Of a DNA stretch of 6,419 bases, positions 1,238-5,503 are shown in pieces. This stretch comes from Nitrospinota bacterium. GTDB taxonomy: Bacteria > Tectomicrobia > Entotheonellia > J063. The stretch's first letter is position 1. Every line of letters begins with the position of its first letter. The translations under genes and the position numbers were made by a program. The DNA is taken from positions 1 to 6,419 of the forward strand of contig RFHZ01000423.1 of NCBI GenBank assembly GCA_003696125.1, written 5' to 3'. The notes beneath the pieces were generated by a model. That model did no database searches. It saw nothing but the letters and a program-made list of their open reading frames with translations, and was not told the DNA's origin.

Positions 1238-3083
1238 GAGAGAAGCGTTGCCGAAAAACGGCGCCTGGTACAGGGAAAACCATCGCTGCACCTTCCGGGT
1301 CTGGGCCCCCCTGGCCCCGTCTGTAGACCTCAGGCTCCTCACCCCTGAGGAGCACCGGATACCGATGGACCGGCAGGAGCGAGGATACTGGGAGGTGGTG
1401 GTGGAGGGGATCGCTCCTGGTACACGCTACCTGTACCATGTGCCGGGAAAGGGGGAGCGCCCCGATCCTGCCTCCCATTTCCAACCCGACGGGGTCCATG
1501 CCCCCTCCCAGGTCGTCGATCACACCGGTTTTCCCTGGACCGATGATCGCTGGCGAGGACCTCTCCTCTCCGAGTTGATCATCTACGAGCTCCACGTGGG
1601 GACCTTTACGCCAGAGGGGACCTTTGAGGCGATCCTCCCCCGTCTCCCTGCCCTCCAAGAGCTGGGAATCACTGCTCTTGAGCTTATGCCGGTGGCCCAG
1701 TTCCCCGGGGAGCGGAACTGGGGATACGATGGGGTCTACCCCTTTGCCGTGCAGAACTCCTATGGGGGGCCGGCAGGACTGAAACGGCTTGTCAACGCCT
1801 GTCACAACGCCGGTATCGCCGTCATCCTCGATGTGGTGTACAACCATCTCGGTCCTGAAGGAAACTACCTGCGCGACTTCGGTCCTTACTTTACCAGGCG
1901 CTACCAGACACCATGGGGGGAGGCGATCAACTTCGACGGGGCGTACAGCGATGAGGTACGAGCCTTTTTCATCGAGAATGCCCTGTACTGGCTCCACCAC
2001 TACCACATCGATGCCCTCCGGCTCGATGCCGTGCACGCCATCCATGACCAGAGCGCCCTCCCCTTTCTCCAGGAACTCGCCCAGCAGGTAAACCGCTGGG
2101 CCCAGTACGAAGGGAGACGGGTCTATCTGATGGCGGAGAGCGATCTCAACGATCCCCGCCTCATCCGTCCCCCCCTCGTCGGGGGATACGGTATCCATGC
2201 CCAGTGGTGTGACGACTTCCACCATGCCCTGCATGCGTTGCTGACCGGAGAAAAGCAGGGCTACTACCAGGACTTCGGCAGAATAGCGCATCTGGTCAAA
2301 GCCTTGCGCGAAGGATTCGTCTATACCGGCCAGTATTCGGCTTACCGGCAGAGACGACACGGCCATACGGCAAAAGACCGTCCGGCCGAGCAGCTGGTCG
2401 TCTTTGCCCAGAACCACGATCAGATCGGGAACCGGATGCGGGGAGAGCGCCTCTCCCGGCTGGTCTCTTTTGAAGGGTTAAAACTCGCAGCCGGTGCGCT
2501 ACTCCTCTCCCCCTTCCTCCCCCTCCTCTTCATGGGAGAAGAATACGGGGAGGAGGCACCTTTCCCCTACTTCGTGAGCCACTCCGATCCGGCCCTGATC
2601 GAGGCGGTACGGCAGGGACGACAGGAGGAGTTTGGTGCCTTTGCCTGGCAGGGAATCCCCCCGGATCCGCAAAGCGTCGAGACCTTCCTCTCCGCAAAGC
2701 TCCGCTGGGAGAGGCAGGAGCAGGGGAAACACCGGGTCTTGCGAGACTTCTATCGCACGCTGATCCAACTGCGCCGGGAGATTCCGGCCCTGGCACAGCG
2801 GGATAAGGAGGCCCTGGAGGCGTGGGGGTGGGAAGCCCCTGAGGTACTCTTCCTGCGGCGGTGGACAGAGGAGAGCCAGGTCTTTCTCCTCTTCAACTTC
2901 CATCCTACCGCAGCCACCCTCCCCCTGCCCCTCCCTCCAGGACACTGGGACAAACGTCTTGACTCGGCAGAGTCCTGCTGGTATGGTCCAGGAACAGATC
3001 TACCGGACCGGCTGACGTCTGGTGAGACGGTCACCATCCGTGGCGAGAGCGTTGCCCTCTATTTACAGGAGGAGAGCGGATAA
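1227..3083 (+). CDS. treZ: Maltooligosyltrehalose trehalohydrolase TreZ (GH13)
   Basis: Hydrolyses the alpha-1,4 bond next to the trehalose end of maltooligosyltrehalose, the product of TreY, and so releases free trehalose in the cytoplasm (EC 3.2.1.141). The 618 residues start with a CBM48/E-set-like beta domain (about 10-100, with FRVWAP at 23-28). The GH13 barrel follows: [13 protein letters not shown] at 121-133, WGYDGVYPF at 165-173, region [16 protein letters not shown] at 201-215, nucleophile Asp267 (LRLDAVHAI), acid/base Glu304 (LMAESD), stabilising Asp398 (AQNHDQIGN), then [15 protein letters not shown] at 428-442 and a short C-terminal beta domain. The Glu-Asp spacing of 94 equals that recalled for Sulfolobus TreZ (283-377). 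NWGYDGV and NHLGPEGNY separate TreZ from branching enzymes. Length is normal or slightly long. The gene overlaps glgB by 11 bases in the +1 frame and shares one base with the next gene. The start was chosen on its ribosome binding site; a GTG at 1200 would add nine residues. Confidence 0.96.
1328..1353 (+). repeat. Overlapping inverted repeats inside treZ (two alternative hairpins)
   Basis: Two perfect stems share bases and cannot form together. GCTCCTCA (1334-1341) pairs with TGAGGAGC (1346-1353) across a CCCC loop. CCTCAGG (1328-1334) pairs with CCTGAGG (1344-1350) across nine bases. They lie about 100 bases into treZ, within codons for LLTPEE. No U-run follows, so this is not a normal intrinsic terminator. 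The pairing is seen directly; any function is unproven and it may be a by-product of coding. Confidence 0.3.
3067..3074 (+). promoter_or_regulatory. Strong Shine-Dalgarno site for the GH57/DUF3536 gene
   Basis: AGGAGGAG lies eight bases before the ATG at 3083, within the last codons of treZ. It is the best Shine-Dalgarno match of the three junctions in the window. With the TAATG stop-start overlap it supports both efficient initiation and coupling to treZ translation. Confidence 0.75.
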
Positions 3084-5503
3084 TGGAGCGATATCTCTGC
3101 ATCCATGGACATTTCTACCAGCCTCCCCGGGAAAACCCCTGGCTGGAAGAGGTGGAACTCCAGGACTCTGCCTATCCCTATCACGACTGGAATGAGCGGA
3201 TCACGGCCGAGTGTTATGCCCCCAACACCGCCTCCCGTATCCTCGACCCGGAGGGACGGATCATCGATATCGTGAACAACTACGCCAAGATGAGTTTTAA
3301 CTTTGGTCCCACCCTCCTCTCCTGGCTGGAGCGCCATAAGCCCGAGGTCTATCAGGCTATTATCGATGCCGATAAAGAGAGCAGGACCCGCTTCTCAGGA
3401 CATGGTTCTGCCCTGGCTCAGGTCTATAACCACATGATCATGCCTCTGGCCAACCGACGGGACAAGTACACCCAGGTGCTCTGGGGGATCAGGGATTTCC
3501 AGCACCGCTTCGGCCGCTTTCCAGAGGGGATGTGGCTTCCAGAGACGGCCGTCGATACGGAAACCCTCGAGGTCCTGGCCGAATGCGGGATCACCTTCAC
3601 CATCCTGGCCCCGCGCCAGGCCAGGCGGATCCGTCCCCTCCAGGCAACAACCTGGGAAGAGGTGGACAACGGCCGTATCGATCCGACCCGCCCCTACCTC
3701 TGCCTCCTCCCCTCTGGCCGGCAGATCACACTCTTCTTTTACGATGGCCCCATCTCCCAGGATCTCGCCTTTGGCGGGTTGTTGAACAGCGGGGAAGCCT
3801 TTGCCCAACGCCTGGTCTCTGCCTTTAACGAGCAGCGCACCTGGCCCCAGTTGGTGCATATCGCCACCGATGGCGAAACGTACGGCCACCATCACCGCTA
3901 CGGAGAGATGGCCCTCTCCTATTGTCTCCACTTCCTCGAGTCGCAAAACCTGGTTCGCCTCACCAACTATGGGGAGTACCTGGAAAGGCATCCCCCGACC
4001 CACGTGGTAGAGATCTTCGAGAACTCCTCCTGGAGCTGTATCCATGGGGTGGAACGCTGGCGGGAGGACTGCGGCTGCAACAGCGGGATGCATCCGGGCT
4101 GGACCCAGGCCTGGCGCAGGCCGCTGCGGGAGGCGATGGACTGGCTCCGCGACCGGCTGGCTCCTTTTTACGAGAGCACCGCCTCCCGGTACCTGCACCA
4201 TCCCTGGCGGGCGAGGGACGAGTACATCTCCCTCATCCTGGACCGCTCTCCGGAACGTGTCGAGGCCTTTCTCCACACCCACGGGAAAAGGCCCCTGTCC
4301 CGGGAGGAGAAGGGCACCGTCCTCATGCTGTTAGAGATGCAAAGAGATGCCTTGCTCATGTACACCAGTTGTGGCTGGTTCTTCGATGAAATCTCTGGCA
4401 TAGAGCCGGTCCAGGTCATGCTGTACGCCAGCCAGGCGATGCAGTACTACGAAAAGCTCGGGCAGACCTCGTTGGAGCCGGGGTACCTGCAGATTCTGGC
4501 CCAAGCCCCGAGTAACGTCTATGCGCACGGTGCCGAGCCGTACGAGATGTTTGTCAAGCCGGCCCGTGTCGATCTCCTCCGCGTCGGGGCCCACTATGCC
4601 ATCTCTTCCCTCTTTGCCGAGTACCCGCAAGAGACGCAGATCTTCTGCTATACGGCCCAGAGCGAGCGCTACGAACGGAGGGAGGCCGGACGGGTAACCC
4701 TGGCCACCGGAAAGGCGACTGTCCGCTCGGACATCACCTGGGAGGAGACGATGATGAGCTTTGCCGTGCTTCACCTGGGAGACCATAACATCCACGGCGG
4801 AGTGCGGGACTTCTCGGGTGAAGAGGAGTTCTCGGCGATGCAGGCCGAGGTGGGAGAGGCGTTTGAGCGGGGGGACCTGCCGGAAGTCATCCGGCGCATC
4901 GATACACACTTTGCCCCCCACACCTATGCCATCTGGCATCTCTTTAAAGATGCGCAGCGGCAGATCCTGGACCAGATCCTGCAATCGACCTATGAAGGGA
5001 TTGAGGCCCTCTACCGGCAGATATACGATACCAACTATCCCCTGATGAACTTCCTGCACGGACTCCAAATCCCCTTACCCAAGCCTCTTGCCGTTGCCGC
5101 AGAATACATCATCAACCGCGACCTGCAGGCCCTCTTTGCGCATGAGGAGATCGACCGGGAACGGTTGACCAACCTCATCCAGGAGACGAAGAGGCAGGGC
5201 ATCGAGCTCGATCGATCGACCCTCCGCTTTGCCGCCAGCCTCTGGATTACCTCCCAGTTTGAGCGTCTCTCCCAGCAGCCGGAAGACCTCTCCCTGCTCG
5301 AGACCCTCGAGGCGGTCTTTCAACTTTTGGCCCCCCTCTCCCTGGACCTCGATCTCTGGAAAGCCCAAAACCTCTACTCCTCTATCGGTGAGCACCTGTA
5401 TCACAGCCAGCAGGAAAGGGCCGCCCAGGGAGATGAGACCGCCCAACGGTGGGTCAGCCTCTTCCACACCCTCGGCTCCTATCTCGGGGTAAAGGTGAGC
5501 TGA
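3083..5503 (+). CDS. GH57-fold glycoside hydrolase, DUF3536-type; putative alpha-glucan-active enzyme of the trehalose operon
   Basis: An 806-residue protein, probably cytoplasmic (no signal peptide or membrane segment). The N-terminal half is a GH57-type catalytic domain: CIHGHFYQPPREN at 6-18 (the family's HxHQP-like region I), GMWLPET at 149-155 with the predicted nucleophile Glu154, and ATDGETYGHHH at 261-271 with the predicted acid/base Asp263. Both catalytic residues are present, so activity is likely. Next come a Cys-rich block (WSCIHGVERW then DCGC; Cys319, Cys330, Cys332) and MYTSCGWFFDEISGIE at 426-441, with Cys430. The rest, to 806, is largely helical with a conserved-looking patch LHLGDHNIHGG at 563-573; I assign it to DUF3536 from memory. 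GH57 members include amylases, branching enzymes and 4-alpha-glucanotransferases. The position between treZ and treY, sharing one base with each, suggests a maltodextrin substrate. The exact reaction is not known to me; debranching, chain trimming or transfer are all possible. The start is secure, because region I begins at residue 8 behind a strong ribosome binding site. Confidence 0.85.
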   Translation: MERYLCIHGHFYQPPRENPWLEEVELQDSAYPYHDWNERITAECYAPNTASRILDPEGRIIDIVNNYAKMSFNFGPTLLSWLERHKPEVYQAIIDADKESRTRFSGHGSALAQVYNHMIMPLANRRDKYTQVLWGIRDFQHRFGRFPEGMWLPETAVDTETLEVLAECGITFTILAPRQARRIRPLQATTWEEVDNGRIDPTRPYLCLLPSGRQITLFFYDGPISQDLAFGGLLNSGEAFAQRLVSAFNEQRTWPQLVHIATDGETYGHHHRYGEMALSYCLHFLESQNLVRLTNYGEYLERHPPTHVVEIFENSSWSCIHGVERWREDCGCNSGMHPGWTQAWRRPLREAMDWLRDRLAPFYESTASRYLHHPWRARDEYISLILDRSPERVEAFLHTHGKRPLSREEKGTVLMLLEMQRDALLMYTSCGWFFDEISGIEPVQVMLYASQAMQYYEKLGQTSLEPGYLQILAQAPSNVYAHGAEPYEMFVKPARVDLLRVGAHYAISSLFAEYPQETQIFCYTAQSERYERREAGRVTLATGKATVRSDITWEETMMSFAVLHLGDHNIHGGVRDFSGEEEFSAMQAEVGEAFERGDLPEVIRRIDTHFAPHTYAIWHLFKDAQRQILDQILQSTYEGIEALYRQIYDTNYPLMNFLHGLQIPLPKPLAVAAEYIINRDLQALFAHEEIDRERLTNLIQETKRQGIELDRSTLRFAASLWITSQFERLSQQPEDLSLLETLEAVFQLLAPLSLDLDLWKAQNLYSSIGEHLYHSQQERAAQGDETAQRWVSLFHTLGSYLGVKVS
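5492..5498 (+). promoter_or_regulatory. Ribosome binding site of treY, inside the end of the GH57 gene
   Basis: AAGGTGA ends four bases before the ATG at 5503. The spacing is short and the match to the anti-Shine-Dalgarno is moderate. The stop TGA at 5501-5503 overlaps the start as TGATG, so re-initiation by ribosomes leaving the upstream gene probably contributes (inference). Confidence 0.55.

Follow-up and report, generated by a model that had tools for sequence, protein, structure and literature searches.

A probable alpha-1,4-glucan-trimming GH57/DUF3536 enzyme encoded between treZ and treY, in a gene order that recurs among bacteria

The usual route to trehalose relies on GlgP and TreX to make the linear chains on which TreY-TreZ act (review, PMC11046441). 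A DUF3536-containing GH57 protein, PoGH57 (WP_137759307.1) from Pontibacter sp. SGAir0037, was assayed in 2024, and its gene cluster was listed as TreZ (GH13_10), GH57, TreY (GH13_26) and MalQ (GH77) (PMC11206854). It trimmed branches longer than DP6, shortened branches made by a branching enzyme and raised DP3–4 chains, while the number of branches stayed constant; the authors named it a probable 4-alpha-glucanotransferase with hydrolytic action, not a branching enzyme (PMC11206854). Its activity on alpha-1,4 chains was very low (27.7 mU/mg on amylose and 4.2 on MD18, maltooctadecaose), and these rates may be underestimates, because they were measured at 50 °C against an optimum of 30 °C and no metal was mentioned (PMC11206854). 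A second point of reference is the GH57 group termed “non-specified amylases” (Martinovicova and Janecek 2018, PMC6037648). It comprises 170 sequences with a mean length of 785 aa, one of them characterised (Wang et al. 2011); its CSR-V ends in two phenylalanines and its CSR-IV has Ser at position 23.

The DNA analysed here (the window, 6,419 nt) made up an entire contig (G000:C754) in the fragmented draft assembly of a Nitrospinota bacterium (4.18 Mb in 990 contigs, 94.8% complete and 8% contaminated), which was searched family by family. The window contained four co-directional genes (+ strand) in a tight glgB-treZ-GH57-treY operon. At its 5′ end lay the C-terminal 411 aa of a glycogen branching enzyme (glgB, GH13_9, 2–1237 bp; NCBIfam TIGR01515, 662 bits), the 5′ part of which was off the window. 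treZ (maltooligosyltrehalose trehalohydrolase, 1227–3083 bp; TIGR02402, 766 bits against a cut-off of 538.8) probably started at the ATG at 1227, as read from the start region, and so overlapped the end of glgB. The GH57/DUF3536 gene (3083–5503 bp) encoded 806 aa with no internal stops; its ATG, preceded by an AGGAGG ribosome site, shared one base with the TAA of treZ (3081–3083), and its TGA (5501–5503) shared one base with the ATG of treY (maltooligosyltrehalose synthase, 5503–6419 bp), of which the N-terminal 305 aa were present before the gene ran off the window (TIGR02401, 270 bits; PRK14511-type, 353 bits; first third of the models). The sequence-only reading of a complete 806-residue GH57-type protein, set between treZ and treY and sharing a base with each, was thus confirmed.

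Pfam searches of the 806-aa protein detected PF03065 (Glyco_hydro_57, residues 18–310, 72 bits) and PF12055 (DUF3536, residues 340–621, 391 bits). By profile alignment, E154 (codon 3542–3544) matched the “WLPE” and D263 (codon 3869–3871) the “D-x-E” catalytic region of GH57 enzymes with known structures, as the predicted nucleophile (CSR-III, WLPE) and proton donor (CSR-IV, TDGETYGHH), respectively. Both residues had been predicted earlier from the letters of the gene, and they were kept in 87/88 (E154) and 88/88 (D263) homologues; the sole exception for E154 was a sequence (L004) that was frame-broken in that part. An AlphaFold model of the protein (pLDDT 93.2, pTM 0.89) displayed the incomplete beta/alpha barrel and following helical bundle of the GH57 fold, then a beta domain and an all-helical C-terminal domain (residues 576–806, 4808–5500 bp, pLDDT 91.5). 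The top 19 structural matches were all GH57 enzymes (Z 27–30), among them the Aquifex amylopullulanase (Z 29.9, rmsd 2.4, 335 aligned residues), the Pyrococcus maltose-forming amylase 4cmr (Z 29.3, rmsd 3.0, 461 aligned over residues 1–625, the longest match), the branching enzyme 3n8t (Z 29.3, rmsd 2.6, 375 aligned) and the glucanotransferase 1k1x (Z 27.9, rmsd 3.1, 344 aligned). Matches within about 1 Z were taken as ties, by which the branching enzyme, the amylopullulanase and the maltose-forming amylase tied with the glucanotransferase close behind, and a specificity could not be read from the fold because these scores tied across GH57 activities. The helical domain had no clear match in the PDB: the best hits (Foldseek, E 0.1; VIA, Z 7.8) stayed within the background to be expected of helical proteins. 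Three short natural versions of the protein (about 495–528 aa; L009, L010 and L011) ended after the catalytic part, with both the beta domain and the helical C-terminal domain missing; one of these genes (L010) was directly followed by malQ.

The window protein resembled PoGH57 in its DUF3536, its cluster with treZ and treY, and its HGHFY and ETYGHH motifs; PoGH57 differed in coming from a mesophile and from a GlgE-pathway cluster, and related Pontibacter species had GlgX elsewhere. Eight Pontibacter loci showed the same treZ-DUF3536-treY layout at 52–54% identity to the window protein, a figure that applies to these congeners and not to PoGH57 itself. Like members of the “non-specified amylase” group, the protein had an intact catalytic pair, a comparable length (806 aa against a mean of 785) and a CSR-V, C430-G-W-F-F434 (4370–4384 bp), ending in two phenylalanines, with W432, F433 and F434 in 88/88 homologues. 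At CSR-IV position 23 (mapped with D263 as position 20) the group has Ser but the window protein had Thr (T266), and its homologues had Thr in 62/87 and Ser in 25/87. Membership of this group was therefore judged likely from fingerprint and length, but short of proof, as Ser-23 occurred in only some homologues. The maltose-forming GH57 amylase of Pyrococcus sp. ST04 (4cmr), although the longest structural match, was archaeal, had 597 residues and 16% identity, and its group has a CSR-V ending in Phe-Trp (PMC6037648), unlike F433-F434 here. The sequence-only reading had known of no assigned activity for the subgroup, a view overtaken by the PoGH57 assay (PMC11206854) and by the fit to this described group (PMC6037648).

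A further set of Cys and His residues was also conserved. The motif C319-x-H321...C330-G-C332 (4037–4078 bp, + strand), a candidate metal or structural site, had all four residues in 88/88 homologues; C430 (4370–4372 bp), inside CSR-V, was kept in 87/88 and C6 in most, and C319, H321, C330, C332 and C430 sat in well-predicted regions of the model. No paper on a GH57 metal site was found in a brief literature search. It is possible, though on balance doubtful, that in DUF3536-type GH57 enzymes these residues (C319, H321, C330, C332, C430 and possibly C6) form a metal or iron-sulfur site next to the catalytic region, which would stabilise or regulate glycogen trimming and would explain the low activity of the one member assayed, which was run without reported metal.

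The neighbourhood of the gene was scored in the best 80 of at least 572 relatives in genome_contigs, a set favouring close relatives; 73 of these loci had room on both sides. treZ was immediately upstream and treY immediately downstream in 34/73, with overlapping ends in several; treY alone adjoined in 4 and treZ alone in 2, and neither tre gene adjoined in 33/73. Loci linked to treYZ carried 14 named phylum labels, as given in the titles of records that were mostly drafts. When treYZ linkage was traced on an 84-sequence tree, it required 15 changes, at least 6 of them forced by strong branches, against 25 with shuffled labels. This recurrent gene order is far beyond chance; the clustered changes indicated repeated gain or loss of the arrangement, followed by its retention, and its presence in 34/73 loci and 14 phyla indicated that it is functional. 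Other genes of interest were also near: within 5 kb of the 80 best loci, GH77 MalQ occurred at 30 (and a longer GH77 at a further 5), GlgB at 26, TreS at 19 and GlgE at 9, and MalQ was within 5 kb of 20/44 treYZ-linked loci. MalQ, TreS and GlgB, alpha-glucan enzymes all three, supported as neighbours an enzyme acting on alpha-1,4-glucans. In four related drafts (L028, L030, L031 and L038), three of them labelled Deltaproteobacteria, a phosphoketolase gene lay upstream of the treZ-DUF3536-treY cluster. In two other loci (L013 and L033) GlgB-DUF3536 belonged to a GlgE-type glycogen cluster, with a TreY fragment and genes of the GlgE and TreS types lying upstream of it.

A broad sample comprised 241 bacteria: besides the window's genome it included four of its class and otherwise genomes spread over the domain. 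DUF3536 was present in 51/241 of them and TreZ in 23/241. Both were present in 11 genomes, where chance would give 4.9 (Fisher p=0.0025, or 0.006 when the window's genome is removed), and with the layout under 14 phylum labels this upheld the proposed tie of the protein to TreY/TreZ. However, TreZ was missing from 40/51 DUF3536 genomes, and within about 6 kb of DUF3536 (coordinates read by eye) GlgB was the commonest of the neighbours tested (15/51), against TreZ in 8/51 and MalQ in 5/51. Since so many homologues were in genomes without TreZ, feeding TreY cannot be the general role of the DUF3536 family. The family is thus a general glycogen/maltodextrin enzyme, repeatedly recruited to the treYZ operon, and a dedicated treYZ enzyme was ruled out by this sample. 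The sequence-only reading of a “dedicated” extra step therefore failed, both here and in the 33/73 close homologues with no adjoining tre gene: flanking by both genes held for 34/73 of the best loci, but the family as a whole lay mostly away from treY/treZ. Distance correlations of DUF3536 with TreZ, TreY, GlgB and MalQ were high but lacked a species baseline and were left out of the evidence.

Taken with the assays of PoGH57, which make trimming of outer alpha-1,4 chains the best-supported mechanism, these data suggest, with somewhat better than even confidence, that the intact gene encodes a starch/glycogen-cutting GH57 protein, an outer-chain-trimming amylase/glucanotransferase that feeds TreY. 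By analogy we infer that the window protein has a PoGH57-like activity and that its product feeds TreY in vivo. It would be a cytoplasmic retaining enzyme acting on alpha-1,4-glucans, cutting the longer of the outer chains in glycogen or maltodextrin and partly re-transferring them to give short linear maltooligosaccharides. These chains would be supplied to, or resized for, the TreY of the same operon, which would isomerise the reducing end for TreZ to cleave to trehalose, and GH77 MalQ, encoded on another contig of the window's genome, may re-lengthen the short chains left over. An earlier suggestion that the protein supplies short linear maltodextrins from glycogen fits the assay of the homologue (PMC11206854).

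The same suggestion had extended to a substitute for TreX. In this role the protein would be an amylopullulanase-like GH57 debrancher that provides TreY with linear chains by cleaving alpha-1,6 bonds. Such an enzyme would fill the slot of the TreX/GlgX of the TreX-TreY-TreZ pathway, amylopullulanases were among the top fold matches, and family profile searches of this 94.8% complete draft found no GlgX/TreX or GDE_C; TIGR02100, the model for GH13 TreX/GlgX, did not match the window protein and in its genome matched TreZ only. GlgX was also rarer in treYZ-linked than in unlinked DUF3536 genomes (6/25 against 13/24, p=0.04), with neither GlgX nor GDE_C in 12/25 of the linked ones, and among the TreZ genomes of the broad sample, grouped after the data had been seen, it occurred in 3/8 linked genomes and 13/15 others (p=0.026; 0.054 without the window's genome). 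This trend agreed with what the sequence-only reading would predict but was weak and phylogenetically confounded, with many incomplete drafts, and about half of the linked genomes did have GlgX or GDE_C. The absence of TreX noted earlier thus held for this draft, and 19/25 treYZ-linked genomes were likewise without GlgX, but linked Ignavibacteriales genomes and all four Pontibacter genomes checked keep GlgX despite the linked layout. TreX/GlgX is moreover a GH13 enzyme cutting alpha-1,6 bonds, another family and, by the PoGH57 assay, another bond; the unchanged branch number in that assay (PMC11206854) argues against a TreX-like debrancher. A stand-in for TreX therefore appears improbable, and that part of the sequence-only reading is not retained.

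A greater, if still minor, probability was given to a general glycogen-architecture enzyme, which, together with GlgB (and MalQ), would set the length of outer chains as glycogen is made or recycled, its place between treZ and treY reflecting a shared substrate and not a trehalose step. The prominence of GlgB in the broad sample agrees with this, as do the glgB in the window's own operon, the GlgB or MalQ found near 16/33 and 13/33, respectively, of the tre-unlinked loci, and the shortening of enzyme-made branches by PoGH57 (PMC11206854). The repeated exact placement between treZ and treY under so many phylum labels, often with overlapping ends, nevertheless suggests more than a shared substrate. 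That same placement might instead reflect action on maltooligosyltrehalose itself or another glucan intermediate, and the very low activity of PoGH57 on amylose (PMC11206854) leaves room for some other true substrate; however, TreZ already performs the release step and most broad-sample homologues come from genomes without TreZ, so we regard this as very unlikely. Least probable of all is a GH57 glycogen branching enzyme: although the fold is in common (3n8t), the HxHLP (CSR-I) and ELF(Y)GHW (CSR-IV) fingerprints of such enzymes (PMC11206854) are replaced by HGHFY (residues 8–12) and ETYGHH (265–270), and the PoGH57 authors reached the same negative conclusion for their protein. This candidate was dropped because those fingerprints are missing and the operon already has its own GlgB.

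DUF3536 is still listed as of “unknown function” in Pfam, yet it occurred in a fifth of the broad bacterial sample. The GH57/DUF3536 group is already partly studied, and what this analysis most usefully adds is how widely the treZ-DUF3536-treY arrangement occurs. The picture of a step simply dedicated to trehalose is corrected. Repeated placement of the gene between treZ and treY, often in genomes without TreX, points to a glycogen-to-trehalose route that would proceed by trimming alpha-1,4 chains and not by debranching.
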